Shown: positions 55,034 to 64,000 of the stretch, in pieces
Position numbering within the stretch: position 1 is the first letter of the stretch
Layout of the letters: every line of letters starts with the position of its first letter
Origin: Macrocybe gigantea
Lineage: Eukaryota; Basidiomycota; Agaricomycetes; Agaricales; Callistosporiaceae
DNA length: 64,000 bases
Assembly (NCBI GenBank): GCA_011319805.1
Contig: SJRY01000294.1
Coordinates: 186,001 to 250,000, forward strand
Reading direction: 5' to 3'
The notes under the pieces: generated by a model
What the model was told of the DNA's origin: nothing
What the model saw: only the letters and a program-made list of their open reading frames with translations
Database searches by the model: none
Position numbers and translations under genes: made by a program

Positions 55034-55462
55034 CGTGACCTTTACAGTGAATACGATCTTTCTTTTGTCCTTCCTCCTTTTTTGCTTGCATCGTCATTCA
55101 GCAGCGAGAGTGCGCGACAGAGCCAGTCTAGATGTCCTGAGGTGACAATGAACTTCCCGCCGATGTCGATGTTGCTGGCGTCGACAAGCTAATGGCTCAT
55201 GACATGACTCGATAAATGTAAACGAATGAATCATTAGAAATTAGAATCAAGGGTTGACGGGACCGTCCCAAGTCATTTGGCCACGTGATGATAAATATCA
55301 TGTGGGTCTCAAGCGAAAGTCACATTTAAATTGTTTGGCTCGTGTCGCGTTTCCACCCTCCTCGAAGGTCATCGATTCTTTCTCGTCTTCCTCCCTGTCT
55401 CTGCATTGCGTTGCTCTCCTCGTAAAAACCATAGAGATCTATGCGTTCAAGCTCTTCACGAC
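55034..55462. other. Intergenic spacer between PFD3 and SHPRH/IRC20
   Basis: About 430 bp between two plus-strand genes, with pyrimidine-rich sequence shortly before the ATG at 55463. No gene is supported. Confidence 0.5.
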
Positions 55463-58400
55463 ATGTCCTGGCCATTCGAACTCCATCCTTCCATGTCTGG
55501 GCGCGCTGTGAAGATCCTCCGTTTAGACCATACCTGAATGTCCCTGAGTTTGCTGAGCTCCTTCAATCATCCGCCCTCCAAGACATAGTTCAAAGCATTT
55601 CGAAGGGCAGGAAGCGTTCCGCAAGTGGAGCCGCTGAAGAGGTCCGACCTGTCAAGCGCCTCAAGACCGCAACATCGTCATCCTCAAGTAGCGACAGCAA
55701 ATCGAAGCTTGACCCTCCAACGCTAAATTTGCCACCGCATTCCTACCCCGGACATCTCTCTCTTAGAGGCTGGGATGTCGAAAATCGCGAGCCCCCAGAC
55801 GCCGCGGATGTAGTTCCGGTGTTTCATCACATTCTGGAAGTTCAATATACAAAAGACGAGGTTCCACAAGTTGTAGGAAGGATGAGTAATGGCTGGAAGC
55901 TTGAGGAAGAGAAATTGAACGAAATGATTGCCGAGCTGCGTAGCTCCCTGTCAAATCCTATGACGATTGATCTTGGTGATTTCCAATTGGCAGTTTATAA
56001 AGACCGCCTTGTTCTTGTCACCAGTTCGCGTCAAGGGAATCCTTTGTGGCTATTGTTGCTCCCACGATACACCCAAGACTCCGATGCCCAGTGGAACAAT
56101 TATACCTCTCCAGTTACCGATGACCTTTTCATGGCTGCATTCATATTGCACTCAGACGATCGAGCTAGAGTCACTGCAAATGTTAAGGTTGTCGTCAATC
56201 CCTCAATGCCTTTGCGAGATTCCAACAGCTTGCCATTTGAGCTTCAAGTCGAGATCAAGTTGTCATTCGTTGTTCCGAACATCTTCAACCTCATTCCCCG
56301 CAACCGCAAAAACCATTGGTCGATTGAGGACGCCCAAAGACGGGTTCTGGATCACCTTTATCCAACTGACCGGCCCACTCCCGATTCGTTCCACGGTTCG
56401 ATTGATATCCCGTTCTTTTATTCCATTATGCGGCCCGCACCAGCTCTTTCTCAATCAATTTCGGATGCTGCTCTGCAACCAAAGGACCTCGTCCCTACTC
56501 TTTTACCATTCCAGCGCCGCAGTGTCGCATGGCTTTTGGACCGGGAAGGCAAGACTGTTACTGAGGAGGGTAATATAGTTTCGAAGCCGAAGATGGGCAA
56601 CTTCAATCTCTGGGAAAAGGTGCAAGACGGAAACTACACTTGGTACCGTAACCGCTTGAGTGGAAATCTTTGTTCCGAGGAACCGCCGGAAATTTATTGC
56701 CAAGGTGGTATGCTAGCAGAGGAACCTGGCTTAGGCAAGACGCTGGAGATCATTTCTCTGATCTTACTGAACCCAGCTGCTCCGACCCGGACTCCAGAGG
56801 CCAAGCGTTCGGATCCAAAAGCTTCTTTGCCTATTAAAGTACGTTTTTTTTTATTGGACTTGGTTGAGCAATACGGACTTACTCTGTATGTCATGGCAGA
56901 CGACGCTCATCGTTACTCCTCCAGCATTAGCATCACAATGGGCGGATGAGCTGGCTGCTCATGCGCCATCTCTCAAAGTCATGGTATACGATGGTTGGAA
57001 GAAGGTCCCGGTGCGGATTACGGGGAGCCCGGCGGAAGCACATCGCGTCAAGAACTTGAAGCCGAAGAAACGCGGTCGTGCAAACACTACCAGGCGTGGT
57101 AAAAAGACGACGAAATCGGAAGGGGGGCGAGACGCCATGAACATTGATGAGCCTGAAGAGGATTTGGATTGGTGCTCCTACGTCCAGACGTTCGACGTGG
57201 TGATCACCACTTATCAGGTCCTGCGTAGTGACCTGAACGTCGCCCGCATTCCTCTATACCGACCGCGGAGGGAAGACGCCGCCTACTCGAACGACGAATA
57301 CCCGCGTAGCCCCCTTGTCATGTGCGAGTGGTATCGGGTGGTCATGGACGAAGTCCAGATGGCCGGAGGGGCTCGTACAGAGTAAGCGTTGTTTGAGTCC
57401 ATCAGAAGATTGCCCCGTCTTACTGATCTTGCAGGGATATGGTTTCGTTGATTCCACGCCTATCATCTTTCGCGGTGTCCGGCACGCCCGCACGGGCACA
57501 AATCGCTGATTTGATTCACGTTCTCAAGTAAGTCGTTTGTCGAGCATGGATGCATATTTGTATCGACTTTGTACGCAGATTCTTGCGCATAGACACCATT
57601 TTTGACTCTTCTCGCCTCTGGAAGAGGATGATCTCGTGCGGATTCGGTGCCGCCCATCTCACAGCACTCTTTCAGTCCTGCGCTATCAGGTAAACTCCTC
57701 CTTAGAATTGTTGCCCACTATTTCAAACATTGAGAATCCGTTTAGGACTCTGAAATCCCAAGTCAGTGAAGAGCTCACGATACCGCAGCAGACACGTTTC
57801 CTCGTCGGCATTACTATGGGCCCTGTCGAGAGACACGTTAGTGTTCGTTGACTGTTGGCCCCAACATTATTCACCGCTTGTGCTCTAGGTGTACGACCAA
57901 GCTCTTGAAACAGTTCTGCTTGAGCTTGGCCTCGACGCTCGAGGCATTGCTACCTCGCAAGGCTGGCGGGCGGATAGCACTGTTTTGCGGTCAGCTATAC
58001 GAAAATTGCGTGGAATATGCACGCATCCTCAGGTACGTATGGACTTGATGAATCACGTTTTCTAAGTTGTTGACTACTTCTATGCTTTTTTTCGTCTAGG
58101 TTGGGCAATTGCAAAAAACATACGATCGTCTTACGAAACCTGGAGTGGTTAAGACAATTAATGACGTCCTTAAGGTCAACTTTTCTTCGCTTTGGAAACG
58201 AAGTAACTGCTGATGTTTTATCGCACAGAATATGGAGGAACAAAATTGGCGAAGCACCATGGACGATGCCAAGTCTAGAGTAAGCGAGCTAACACTGCAT
58301 TCGATGCACAACTATTTAGCCCTGGCTAGATCCAGAGTCTCATCACATATGCTCAACTGCAACGCCAAGACGAGAAAGACCTGGGACGGTATCGACATGC

Positions 58401-61400
58401 CTTAGAAACGCTTTTACAGGCCGAGAAGGAGGCCAACGTATTGATAAACGATGTCAAGGCCTCCCTGAAGGAGGTTACTGTCGAAAGCTCTCATTTGAAA
58501 CCCGAGACAGAAGTTGACGGAGATGAGGATCCCGTCACCAATAGCAAAAGAAAGGAACGATCTCTATCCGAACAAACCGAAGCACGCACCGAGGATGATC
58601 TACCTGTAGGCGGAGCAGCGGACGAGTTGAGAAAACGGCGCGGCGCGCTGCAAAACCGCCTTCGGGAGTGTCTTCTTACTCTCCACAGGGCGAAATTCTT
58701 ACAAGGCGATATGTACCACGTACTTGGCGATGCTGCGTCCGAAGACGCGGCGTACGGAGCTGCGGAGGAAATCCGTCGCACTTTGTTAAAGGGTGATTAC
58801 CGAAGCCCTGTGATTCGTCATTGTAGTATTTATATTGATGACTTTCTTAGGCACGGAGGCGGACGCCGAACGTGCGATGTCCCAGTTTATGGACGAAGTC
58901 GCCAAGAAACAGCTAAAGAAGGAATCGTTCCTTTTACACAAGCCTTATCTAAATGAGGCTCCGGCTCTAGCGCGAACCACTGGACTACAGCCAACGCCAG
59001 CGGAGCTGAAAGCTAAGCCTGTGCTGCAGAAGGTCACTATTTATAAACGCGCTTGCGATTATTTGAATCTCGTGCGTCTCTTTCGATGTTCTAGCGAGCA
59101 ACAGACTCAGTATTGGTCGTGCAGATCACCGAGGCCAACGATATTATTCAAGAGGTCCTTAATAAGCAAGGCGGCCTTCTGTGGGATTGGAGAACTCATA
59201 TCGTGAACCTGATCACTCAGAGTTTATCCTCTCGAGAAAACGAAGCCGATGGCGAGGAATACCAGCGCACCTTGGACAACCAAGGTGAAGCGGAGGCTTA
59301 TCTGCAATGTTATGCTGCGGTATTGGCGGACCGCAGACAAGCCCTCGTCGACGAGAGAACACTCTTGGCCGCACATGACGCTCGCGAAAAAAAGCTTCGT
59401 CAGACGAAAGCGGCCATGAAGGCGGCCCAGAACGACACCATTTCTCGCCTAGAAGATGGAGAAAATGTTGACCTGCAGCCAGAACACGAAGTTCTTCACA
59501 GACAGCTTTCGGAGAAGAGGAAAGCTGTGCTTGAGTTGCTCGAAGGTAGAGCAATCAAGAGTGTGCGTTGAGGTTCGTGTCGTTCAAAGATGTCCCATCT
59601 GACTTGCGTTCACTTCAGGTCATCGTCGAGCTCAATGCAATGTCAACGCGCATACATAAAGACACAGATCCAGACAAAATCATACTTAAAGAGGCCAGCG
59701 CTGCTCTTCGCAAGCTGATTACATCGGAAAGTATGTATGCATGTATTTCCATCTCGGACTGCAATAACGTTCCCTAGCTGGGCTCTTGGACAAGTTGGAG
59801 AGCGACCTGGGCATGATGCGAAAAGTATTCAATCAGCGGATCTTATATTTCCGTCAGCTGCAAGAAATCTCAGACTCTGTCGCTGAAGTAACCTGGGAAG
59901 GTACACTCGCAGATGCTCTCGAGAACTCCCGCCAGGTGCAAAGGGAGCTAGAAGGAAAAGTAAACACCTCTCGGGCCCGACAACGTTACCTCGAAAACTT
60001 GGCGAAAGGGAATGCAGACGGCACTGACGATGAAGATGATGAATGCTGCATCTTGTGTCGTTGTGAATTTACCAGGGATTCGTTACTCAGTGGTAAGCAT
60101 GCTGCGTACATGAAAATGCCTCGAGATGTTTACCTTCCCGCCATATAGTGCCCATGTCTTCTGCGAGGTTCGGGTTTAGGGTGTTATACGAAATAAGAAA
60201 CCGGACCTGATCTTCATTATGTCAGGGATGCATGAAGGCCTGGATGCTTCGTAAAGAAGGAAAAACATGTCCCGTTTGCCGGTAAGTCAACACTGCCTAT
60301 TTTTTGGTTACAATATAATTATCTTGTTGTAGTGTAATGATCGATCCCGATACCGTTCAACGGTTCACCATCGACCAGTCAGCGCCTCAGCCTTCGGCCT
60401 CCAAATCTGCTAATGTAGAACCGATACCGAAGTCACGTCGGACGATTGCTTATAATACAATAGGTAAGCGTCGCGAAACCTGCTCTCACTTCTTGTCTCA
60501 TGAGTTCTTTAGATCATAGACTGCTGGACAAAATACAAAGTGTCGACTCATTTGGCGACTTTGGGACCAAAATACAGACACTCGTTCGGCACTTACTATA
60601 CCTTCGTGAAGAGGATCCAGGTGCAAAAAGTATTATATTCTCGGCATGGGCCGATTCATTGCATAGTATGTTCTCGTCATATCGTACAAAGCACACTCTC
60701 ATCCGGTATCCTTTCAGTCATGCAACAAGCATTGCAAGAAAATGGTATTTAGTCGTTCTGATTCCTTTCTTTGTGATGCCAACTCTTTTCAGGTATTACC
60801 AGCCTCAGAATCGACCAAAGTACGAAGAAAAAGAGCGCGACGAAGAAGTTCAAGGACGATCCCGACATTCTCGTCCTGTTGCTGCATGGGTCGGTTTTCA
60901 TTTTCCACTGATTGGCACCAATCTTATTTTATTTCTTCAGCGAGAGAGAAAATGCTGGTTTGAATATCACCTGTGCCTCTCGCGTATTTTTGATGGAAAG
61001 TGTCGTCCATCACGGCTTTGAGATTCAAGGTTCGTTGAAATTACTCTGGTTATTTAGGTGATGAAAACTGTCTTCTTCGTGTCCAGCAATTGCACGGATC
61101 GATAGGATGGGCCAGTCTCGGCGTACAGAAGGTCAGTGTTATGTGTTTCCCGATGAGAATCTCATTGACACCTGTACCGCACTAGTTTATTGCTATTATG
61201 CCGAGGGTAAAAAAGTTGTCGTTATTGCGGTAGACGAATGAAACTCATGTTTGCCTCAGATACAGTAGAAAGAAACATTCTGGACCTTGCAGCGAGGAAA
61301 GGGATGTCGCTCTATACCAAGGTCAACTCGGCTGGAACGCTGAATATCTCTTCGCTCGTAAACGACACGGAGAAGAAGAAAGACATTGACCATTTGACGA

Positions 61401-61659
61401 GGAAGAAGAAGAAGAAAGTCCAAAAGGGAGACTTCATCTACAAGTGCGCCTTTGAATGCTCGCATGTCGAAAACACTGACCGTCAAGCCTTTTCGCAATC
61501 AGGATTGACGATATGCTTGCAATCCTCTTCCCTCACATGTACGAGGACATAGAATACCTTATCCCGGAGGATGCCTTATCGTTACATACCGGCAACCGAG
61601 TTTCGAGAGGAGGCATCGAGGTTGACGCTGTCGCAGGTCCCTCTAGGTCCGGGTCATAG
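55463..61659 (+). CDS. IRC20: SHPRH/IRC20-type SNF2 helicase and RING E3 ubiquitin ligase
   Basis: Twenty-four exons run from MSWPFELHPSMSGRAVKI to a TAG at 61657. Order: N-terminal domain; SNF2 part with Walker A (MLAEEPGLGKTLEIISLILL), TTLIVTPPALASQWADEL, FDVVITTYQVLRSDLNVAR and the DExx box VVMDEVQMAGG; the large insertion typical of SHPRH (QWELNN-type helical region, ITEANDIIQEVLNKQGGLLW); a C3HC4 RING (CCILCRCEFTRDSLL, HVFCEGCMKAWMLRKEGKTC, PVCR) inside the helicase; then helicase C (KSIIFSAWADSLH, NAGLNITCASRVFLMESVVH, AIARIDRMGQSRRTEVYCYY). SHPRH polyubiquitinates PCNA; yeast Irc20 limits recombination and double-strand break outcomes. One missing base near 55539 and one near 60092 disturb the frame. 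The DEVQ box replaces DEAH. Confidence 0.92.
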
Positions 61660-62450: not shown

Positions 62451-62763
62451 TCAATCACGCACCCAGTAGCGACCACCCTCTCCGTTAGAGTAAGGTAGGT
62501 CTACATTGACTTCTCCCTGATACACGTGTCAGTCGGTCATCCACGATCATTCAAAGTTAGAACTCTATCACCTCTACATTGCGCACCCACCAGCGTCCTC
62601 CGTCTCCGTTTGAGAAGGGAAGGTCTGCATTGACTTCGCCCTGATCATTTTCTTTTCGGTCAATGGTGGATTGCCTATCAATTGCAACCCTTTACCTCAA
62701 CGCCGCGCACCCAGTAACGACCTCCTTCGCCGTTTGAGTATGGCAGGTCAACGTTGACTTCGC
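62451..62763 (-). repeat. Three tandem exon-intron units of about 124 bp
   Basis: Units begin at 62763, 62640 and 62516 (minus strand). Exon parts are 68, 69 and 66 bp and the two introns between them are 55 bp each. Between units 1 and 3 the 19-residue core is identical in protein but differs at ten codons by synonymous changes; unit 2 differs from unit 1 at four residues. The introns have diverged in sequence while keeping their length. Confidence 0.85.
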
Positions 62764-62894
62764 CTCTGTTCTATGGGGTGGCATTATCTACTCATTCGCT
62801 CTCAAGAGAAATTTGGACTTGCCTCAACTGCGGTAGGTGCAGCTTTGGTGGAAAGAACAAGGGCAGCTGCTACAATGTACAGAAGAGCGTTCAT
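62451..62894 (-). CDS. Secreted peptide precursor with three exon-encoded tandem repeats (RiPP-precursor candidate)
   Basis: Four exons (62819-62894, 62696-62763, 62572-62640, 62451-62516) give 92 residues; all three introns are GT-AG and exactly 55 bp. Residues 1-20 form a clear signal peptide (MNALLYIVAAALVLSTKAAP). The rest is three repeats, one per exon, with core EVNVDLPYSNGEGGRYWVR; repeat 2 has conservative changes (V to A, Y to F, E to D, Y to W) and repeat 3 ends in D then stop. Each unit lacks Cys and has no dibasic Kex2 site. No homologue is known to me. Tandem repeats behind a signal peptide, close to a UstYa/DUF3328 gene, are the layout of fungal dikaritin precursors. A repetitive secreted effector or wall peptide is the alternative. 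The repeats start 123-124 bp apart. Confidence 0.72.
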
Positions 62895-62974
62895 GGCAAA
62901 TGAGTACGTGAATGATAGCGCTGTCTGGATTCCGACATTTATGCATCTGGCCTTGGGCTCTTCACGTATTCACC
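62895..62974. promoter_or_regulatory. 80-bp divergent spacer between repeat peptide and short membrane ORF
   Basis: The start codon of the repeat-peptide gene (62894, minus) and that of the plus-strand ORF (62975) are only 80 bp apart. If both are expressed, they share their control region. No motif is recognised. Confidence 0.35.
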
Positions 62975-63151
62975 ATGCTACAAGAAGACGGTTGTCCTTT
63001 CTATAAGGGGTTAGCCCCTCCAAAACCGAAGTCAAAGATTGAGCAACTCGGGGCATCTTGTCGATTTGCAACCCTGGCCGTATTGGCCCTGATGCTGCTC
63101 ATCCTAACATTCGAAGTGAGTGTGAATGCACTGAGGAAACGATTACATTAG
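62975..63151 (+). CDS. Short membrane-anchored ORF, possible remnant of a UstYa-like N-terminus
   Basis: The ORF has 58 codons from the ATG at 62975. It encodes a hydrophilic start (MLQEDGCPFYKGLAPPKPKS) and a hydrophobic helix (FATLAVLALMLLILTF), then LRKRLH and a stop; a GTGAGT donor sits right after the helix at 63116. UstYa-type proteins begin with just such a short cytoplasmic part and one helix, encoded by the first exon. I found no following exon with the conserved YSPA...EY block before 63544. It may be a truncated relative, a small membrane protein or chance. Its position beside the repeat peptide is the reason to keep it. Confidence 0.35.
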   Translation: MLQEDGCPFYKGLAPPKPKSKIEQLGASCRFATLAVLALMLLILTFEVSVNALRKRLH

Positions 63152-63543
63152 GAATGGGCAAGCTGGGAACTGCTGCAGGATAATACAGTATTTTTTTGTT
63201 GAAATTTCTGATTTCCCCTACCAAACTCGTGTGCGACAAGCACAGGTCGAGAGTGATGGAAATCTAGGGTCGTCACATTTATAACCAAACTGGCAACACA
63301 CGGGATCAACCTGAACCATGAACGATGCATGAACACTGGGCGCTGAGCAGCGTGACCTTCGAGATTGCATAAAACGAGTGATCTGCGGTCAGTGATGGTA
63401 TGCAGTCTACAACATGTCCATCAGCAAGCCGTGCTAAATCGCTTGGCCTAAACTGTTTCTAGAAAGAGATCGAAGAGAAGCCTCTGTGGGCCCGAGTCGA
63501 CGCCTGCCTTCCCTCTTGAGTCGTTCAAGCAGCAGTGTCTTTA
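63152..63543. other. Promoter region of the UstYa-like gene
   Basis: No gene is supported in these 392 bp. They lie directly upstream of the ATG at 63544. Confidence 0.45.
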
Positions 63544-64000
63544 ATGGTCAACGGATCCTCGGAGCACCTGCCCTTCATCGTCGAATCACCTAGTCTAGAG
63601 GACGGCCATGACACCACGTTCAGCAAGCAATCTGGACTCGGAAAATGGACTCGCAGAGGGCATGGACCTTGCTCGGCGACGACACGAGAGAAGTTCTTAC
63701 TCGCACTCATAGTCCTACAAGCCATCGTATTGCTCGCCGTGTTACTCGTCAACCGTCGAGAGGTCGCTTGTCAAGGCCAGAGCAATGACTATCCCCTACT
63801 CTATTGTAAGCATTCTCAAGGCTTCTCGGGAGCTCCATTGATTCGCCTACCTGAACAGCCCCTGCTCAATCAGTCATCGAATATGAAGTCAAATCTTTTA
63901 CAGCGGGTCGAGAGCACAAGACCGTATATCAAGGAATATCGAAAGAAACGGATCGTGCTTGGGGAGAGCTATACAACCGTACGTCCGTTGACTGTCTCCA
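63544..64000 (+). CDS. UstYa-like (DUF3328) oxidase, 5' part
   Basis: Exon 1 (63544-63805) encodes a hydrophilic N-terminus with the start MVNGSSEHLPFIVESPSLED, a basic patch and one transmembrane helix (FLLALIVLQAIVLLAVLLVN). After an intron (63806-63858), exon 2 (63859-63978) reads SPAQSVIEYEVKSFTAGREH and YQGISKETDRAWGELYN. This is the first conserved block of the DUF3328 family (the SPA...EY, YQG and AW-x-LY pattern). A GTACGT donor at 63979 follows, and the catalytic HxxHC motifs expected further on lie beyond the window. UstYa and UstYb and their relatives oxidatively cyclise repeated core peptides in ustiloxin, phomopsin and asperipin pathways; in agaricomycetes the family is widespread and mostly untested. 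Confidence 0.85.
   Translation, partial: MVNGSSEHLPFIVESPSLEDGHDTTFSKQSGLGKWTRRGHGPCSATTREKFLLALIVLQAIVLLAVLLVNRREVACQGQSNDYPLLYCKHSQGFSGAPLIRLPEQPLLNQSSNMKSNLLQRVESTRPYIKEYRKKRIVLGESYTTVRPLTVS

Follow-up and report, generated by a model that had tools for sequence, protein, structure and literature searches.

Does the pair of divergent genes at the right end of the window, the whole 64,000-nucleotide stretch of DNA that was analysed (C292:186001-250000 of an assembly of 41.2 Mb and 333 contigs), encode a peptide precursor on the minus strand and, on the plus strand, the UstYa/DUF3328 enzyme that modifies it? We modelled the peptide gene (62451-62894, minus strand) with four exons, a 93-residue protein and three repeats of about 20 residues, which in order are GEVNVDLPYSNGEGGRYWVR, GEVNADLPFSNGDGGRWWVR and GEVNVDLPYSNGEGGRYWVR; the spliced protein reads, exon by exon, MNALLYIVAAALVLSTKAAPTAVE - NRGEVNVDLPYSNGEGGRYWVRGVE - GEVNADLPFSNGDGGRWWVRNVE - GEVNVDLPYSNGEGGRYWVRD. 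Exon 1 (62823-62894) is signal-peptide-like, and its hydrophobic N-terminus, as read by eye, is also kept in the paralogue on contig C206 (MKLFIAFVASALVIFAKAVPIAVD); the window peptide is probably secreted, judging from the predicted protein. Exon 2 (62696-62770) carries the first repeat with its flanks (NR GEVNVDLPYSNGEGGRYWVR GVE), exon 3 (62572-62640) the second (GEVNADLPFSNGDGGRWWVR NVE), and exon 4 (62451-62516) the third, followed by D and a stop codon that ends at 62451. The introns measure 52-55 bp: intron 1 (62771-62822, 52 bp) is GC-AG, and introns 2 (62641-62695) and 3 (62517-62571), of 55 bp each, are GT-AG. Because all three are in phase 0, each repeat occupies one self-contained exon. 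GC-AG boundaries thus occur at 62771-62822 of the peptide gene, and also at C206:32351-32424 in the C206 UstYa gene. Pfam returned only sub-threshold matches for the peptide (DUF7770 and LydB), which were taken as chance.

The start of the UstYa gene (63544, plus strand) lies 649 bp from that of the peptide gene, across a shared intergenic region with the position of a divergent promoter (62895-63543). Two of its five exons are inside the window: exon 1 (63544-63805) encodes an N-terminal tail, a hydrophobic, membrane-anchor-like stretch and the beginning of the lumenal part, and exon 2 (63859-63978) encodes SPAQSVIEYEVKSF...AWGELYN. The two HxxHC motifs are encoded by exons 3-5, which are outside the window at C292:250031-250564. 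The spliced protein has 268 residues and no internal stop, and it matched PF11807 with 163.6 bits against a cut-off of 25 (profile positions 18-220 of 220), compared with 167.6 bits (positions 5-220) for the C206 copy. The motifs are HQLHC at residue 163 and HVSHC at residue 190, and in the C206 protein HQLHC at 158 and HVSHC at 185. These data show, at the level of the predicted protein, an intact UstYa with both metal motifs. Two proposals of the initial annotation, a secreted-type three-repeat precursor about 650 bp from a UstYa-type gene and a DUF3328 domain in the gene at 63544, were thus borne out by the four-exon model, the 649 bp distance and the PF11807 score.

Among 1176 candidates, 117 UstYa homologues were found at E <= 1e-3; those named include Gymnopilus junonius CPB84DRAFT_1737235, G. 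dilepis CVT26_007888 and proteins of Phlegmacium, Cyathus and Armillaria, the nearest named one being that of G. junonius, with 69% identity over the full length. All the close genera, Gymnopilus, Galerina, Armillaria and Coprinopsis among them, are members of the Agaricales, and the relatives of the enzyme thus suggest a mushroom of this order as the host. The His and Cys residues of both HxxHC motifs were invariant in the aligned homologues (42 of 117). A structural model of the Gymnopilus homologue reached a mean pLDDT of 79.5 and a pTM of 0.64 (the other four models gave 58.7-68.3), and it placed an N-terminal helix at the membrane-anchor position and each HxxHC motif on its own helix. Foldseek searching of this model against the PDB gave 0 matches at E <= 0.001, and the single UstYa protein had no match to solved structures by sequence at E <= 1; the sole solved-structure match of the profile, the sc-CC-6-95 chain (E 0.011 over 55 positions), was taken as chance. 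No enzyme locus was found in the bacterial/archaeal and viral contig collections.

Pfam and protein searches of this genome located UstYa genes only on C292, on its allele C203 and on C206, although such counts are lower bounds for large families. With either repeat protein as query, the same three places were recovered, with nine matches each and nothing else up to E 10. Contig C203 (27,648 bp) was not accepted as a further independent locus: four pieces of it align with C292 in the same order at 97.6-98.6% identity. It represents the second haplotype of the C292 region, and the material sequenced was therefore a dikaryon or heterozygous in some other way. Homologues of the repeat protein without a DUF3328 neighbour, which the initial annotation had named as evidence against itself, were sought in this genome, and both peptide loci, plus the one allele, adjoin a UstYa gene in divergent orientation, at a distance of 689 bp on C206. 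The C206 peptide has two repeats and reads MKLFIAFVASALVIFAKAVPIAVD - SRGEVNHDVAYANGSGGVYWVREE - VSREVNADAQAYDNGPNTYW - V, its last small intron being modelled, so that read-through would lengthen the tail. The first two intron positions match between the two peptide genes. Across the two proteins, the repeats follow the motif EVNxD-x(2,3)-[Y/F]-x-N-G-x(3,4)-[Y/W]-W-V: all five keep E-V-N-x-D, aromatic-x-N-G and aromatic-W-V and vary in between. Tyr is present in four of the five, and the fifth has Phe and Trp-Trp; the two aromatic sites first noted in the window repeats thus recur in every repeat. Such constancy would be expected if an enzyme recognises or modifies these residues.

At both C292 and C206 the UstYa gene is followed by a third gene family, whose product, as judged by eye, is of secreted type and has a hydrophobic stretch at the C-terminus. 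On C292, to the right of the window, it has two tandem members (251559-252326 and about 250713-251280), the first copy apparently shortened relative to the second. Elsewhere in the genome, a query joined by hand gave one weak match (E 0.84), and the C206 member had no Pfam match. When C292:225-270 kb was compared with C206:17-47 kb by blastp (frames of >=25 residues, E <= 1e-3, antisense frames of the three genes counted within them), no shared gene beyond these three was found. The expectation that the cluster continues to the right of the window was therefore correct for one linked gene family, but no further shared gene lay in the stretches compared.

Pfam was also run on a selection of 20 frames, which included a piece of the third gene, and 9 matched: on C292 SNF2, FAD_binding_4, rhamnosidase (two frames) and CFEM, and on C206 Phage_lysozyme (two), glutamine synthetase and aspartyl protease, the last about 10 kb from the C206 set. 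Tyrosinase and methyltransferase were not among the 20 neighbouring frames scanned. To the left of the peptide gene, SNF2-type helicase-like frames, probably of one large gene, span about 55435-61552 of the window (plus strand), one of the two scanned matching SNF2-rel_dom. To the right on C292 lie the CFEM frame (252538-253104, minus strand), the FAD_binding_4 oxidase (259379-260104, minus strand) and the alpha-L-rhamnosidase (262814-266533, plus strand); because they are not shared with the C206 locus, these frames probably stand outside the set. The Phage_lysozyme-domain frames are beside the C206 peptide gene (C206:27556-28275, minus strand, and C206:29931-30440, plus strand).

The linkage at the two loci is old. 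Over the lumenal part, the C292 and C206 UstYa proteins are identical at 160 of 181 residues, with a pS of 0.83, near saturation, and a pN of 0.055. Their intergenic regions shared words no more often than shuffled sequences (20 eight-base words against 14.2 expected, a count reached by 15% of shuffles; four nine-base words against 3.7; no ten-base word). Since the flanks are not shared, the intergenic DNA is dissimilar and pS is near saturation, the set stayed linked past neutral divergence. A 48-row tree grouped the two copies with Gymnopilus, Galerina and two further rows (support 99/98), and their end branches (0.21 and 0.18) equalled in length those of the two Gymnopilus species (0.18 and 0.20). 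Their placement as sister copies had weak support (89/23) and was not adopted. Two long-diverged loci of this genome thus carry the linked families: the set was duplicated once, long ago, and has remained together at both. Because one block duplication produced them, C292 and C206 do not count as independent instances of the linkage.

From this arrangement of predicted genes, we consider it probable that the locus is a compact one for a ribosomally made, oxidised peptide, that is, a multi-core precursor modified by UstYa. An unlikely alternative is that the repeat protein is a secreted linear precursor, of a signal, surface or repellent peptide, that the UstYa substrate lies elsewhere, and that the two genes are neighbours only through duplication of a whole block. 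Such a reading accommodates the fact that the linkage on C206 and C292 stems from one duplication that also carried the third gene, and linear repeat peptides have been reported from agaricomycetes (PMC9769878); moreover, no peptide homologue was found with which the linkage could be tested in other species. However, the flanks and intergenic DNA have diverged, yet the pair remained adjacent and divergent, the peptide is present at every UstYa locus found in the genome, and both aromatic sites were retained in five of five repeats. All of this argues against that alternative. The search for peptide relatives outside this genome covered 5.8 billion proteins, with a single-sequence query and a two-sequence profile, and gave none at E <= 10 among 31 and 71 candidates, respectively. 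Candidates had to be 0.55-1.75 times the query length and to share 5-residue words, and divergent or unannotated relatives would therefore be missed. The lack of a peptide relative weighs against the favoured reading, given that 117 homologues of the enzyme were found.

We infer the modification, cutting, expression and function of the locus product. The 93-residue precursor would enter the secretory pathway, where the adjoining membrane-anchored UstYa-type copper oxidase would act on the repeated cores; the likeliest reaction would be an oxidative link, or some other oxidation, in which the two conserved aromatic sites take part. Cross-linking is not a given, because members of the UstYa family also hydroxylate, halogenate or isomerise (PMC12435403). 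As the initial annotation had noted for the window protein, dibasic Kex2 sites are lacking: no K/R pair occurs in it, nor in the C206 precursor. The cores would instead be freed by cutting after a single Arg (NR|GEVN... and ...YWVR|); a Kex2-like protease would probably make the cut, and a Kex1-like activity would take off the final Arg. In both proteins a single Arg precedes the first core, as one does the second core on C206, and a single Arg follows [Y/W]WV in four of the five cores; the fifth, on C206, ends as YWV-stop in the gene model, which is the end expected from Arg trimming. Repeat proteins of Coprinopsis, when produced in Pichia, have been reported to be cut after single arginines (PMC9769878). 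For the core GEVNVDLPYSNGEGGRYWV the computed [M+2H]2+ is 1055.9951, or 1054.9872 after loss of 2 H, and with the last Arg kept 1134.0456, or 1133.0378 after loss of 2 H; the corresponding values for the C206 cores are 997.4556/996.4477 and 1013.9425/1012.9347.

The arginines of the window protein also bear on a second alternative, in which a small secreted repeat protein is left uncut and UstYa oxidises or links its aromatic repeats within the intact chain; it could, for example, belong to the wall or the surface, along with the third protein and its hydrophobic C-terminus. Absence of dibasic sites is what such a protein would show, and its link to the third gene, whose product is of secreted type and hydrophobic at the C-terminus, points the same way. 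Furthermore, window repeats 2 and 3 are preceded by Glu, not Arg, and would therefore carry a GVE or NVE extension under single-Arg cutting, and all three window cores also contain an internal Arg (GGR-[Y/W]WV), at which indiscriminate single-Arg cutting would cut too, so that this site would need sparing. The C206 cores, however, are bracketed by Arg and have none inside (SR|GEVN...YWVR|EEVSR|EVN...YWV-stop), an arrangement that resembles release sites; the uncut protein is decidedly improbable.

Whether the repeats are maintained by selection was read from their nucleotides. Repeats 1 and 3 of the window encode an identical protein sequence and differ at 11 of 60 nucleotides, with 11 synonymous and 0 non-synonymous changes (pS 0.75, close to saturation), a pattern with a probability of about 2e-7 if changes were random; this indicates that the repeat is under selection. 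Introns 2 and 3, compared without gaps, have the same base at 21 of their 55 positions. Between the C292 and C203 haplotypes, as read from the alignment, the peptide coding exons carry one substitution in 282 bases, a synonymous one, against eight in the 160 aligned intron bases with gap columns excluded (Fisher p = 0.0016); an alternative alignment of one short segment of intron 2 lowers the total to six or five substitutions, with p = 0.010 and 0.025, respectively. These data demonstrated the structure of the peptide gene and purifying selection on its repeat. Chance open frames or a decayed gene would fit short exons and the lack of a homologue among predicted proteins but are hardly credible, given only synonymous change between identical repeats, a matching exon layout in the diverged paralogue and exons that differ less between the alleles than the introns do.

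A wider generalisation is possible, though we hold it as doubtful: the two loci may represent a class of mushroom UstYa peptides with one exon per core and the motif EVNxD..[YF]xNG..[YW]WV, cut at single Arg, oxidised between the aromatic sites and kept with a dedicated third protein of surface type. Close UstYa relatives occur in many mushroom genera, and the product could therefore be a conserved mushroom signal peptide and not a sporadic toxin. In Pleurotus, 6 of 16 UstYa-like genes are reported to be developmentally expressed (PMC8893723), which leaves room for a developmental role here.

Among known systems, the enzyme can be compared with CctR and other DUF3328 copper enzymes. CctR hydroxylates cyclochlorotine, a non-ribosomal peptide. 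In CctR, HxxHC(x)nHxxHC is described as a site for two coppers, formed at the dimer interface within the lumen of an organelle (PMC12435403). The predicted UstYa protein resembles these enzymes in its membrane anchor and in HxxHC(x)nHxxHC borne on two helices, as modelled, whereas its substrate is inferred from linkage.

The dikaritins (ustiloxin, phomopsin, asperipin-2a and victorin) share with the present locus a secreted-type precursor, tandem, mostly Tyr-bearing cores and an adjoining UstYa with two HxxHC motifs. A dikaritin precursor, by published description, consists of a signal peptide and cores separated by KR, RR or KK (PMC9769878). Here, in contrast, no such pairs separate the cores, which have about 18-20 residues and stand one per exon, a single UstYa gene accompanies each locus, the host is a mushroom, and neither tyrosinase nor methyltransferase was present in the neighbouring frames scanned. 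Where dikaritins are defined by the DUF3328 enzyme, with two HXXHC motifs as marker (PMC12048977), the locus would be a dikaritin candidate. The Kex2-processed repeat proteins (KEPs) of Basidiomycota are likewise similar in a signal-like N-terminus and repeats, and some lie near DUF3328 genes (PMC7329392); they are defined and mined by the dibasic sites that this locus lacks. It was therefore filed neither as a KEP nor as a classical dikaritin, and is dikaritin-like by anatomy. The suggestion of a new basidiomycete precursor type can thus be kept for the missing dibasic sites and the single repeat per exon, but not for nearness to DUF3328, which was already known (PMC7329392). No UstYa precursor without dibasic sites was found in open-access titles and abstract openings, a scope with subscription papers mostly outside it, which is weak evidence that such a precursor is unpublished.

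The kingdom-wide survey took repeats separated by Kex2 sites as its criterion and found DUF3328 genes near 103 of 1680 basidiomycete KEPs, a scarcity read there as another cyclisation factor or motif, or as hardly any cyclisation (PMC7329392). As Kex2 sites were required, that survey would overlook a precursor that is linked to UstYa but lacks them. The present locus offers a small gene set, a defined core and exact masses, and is testable by co-expression; if our reading is true, a blind spot in the method may account for part of the basidiomycete gap.
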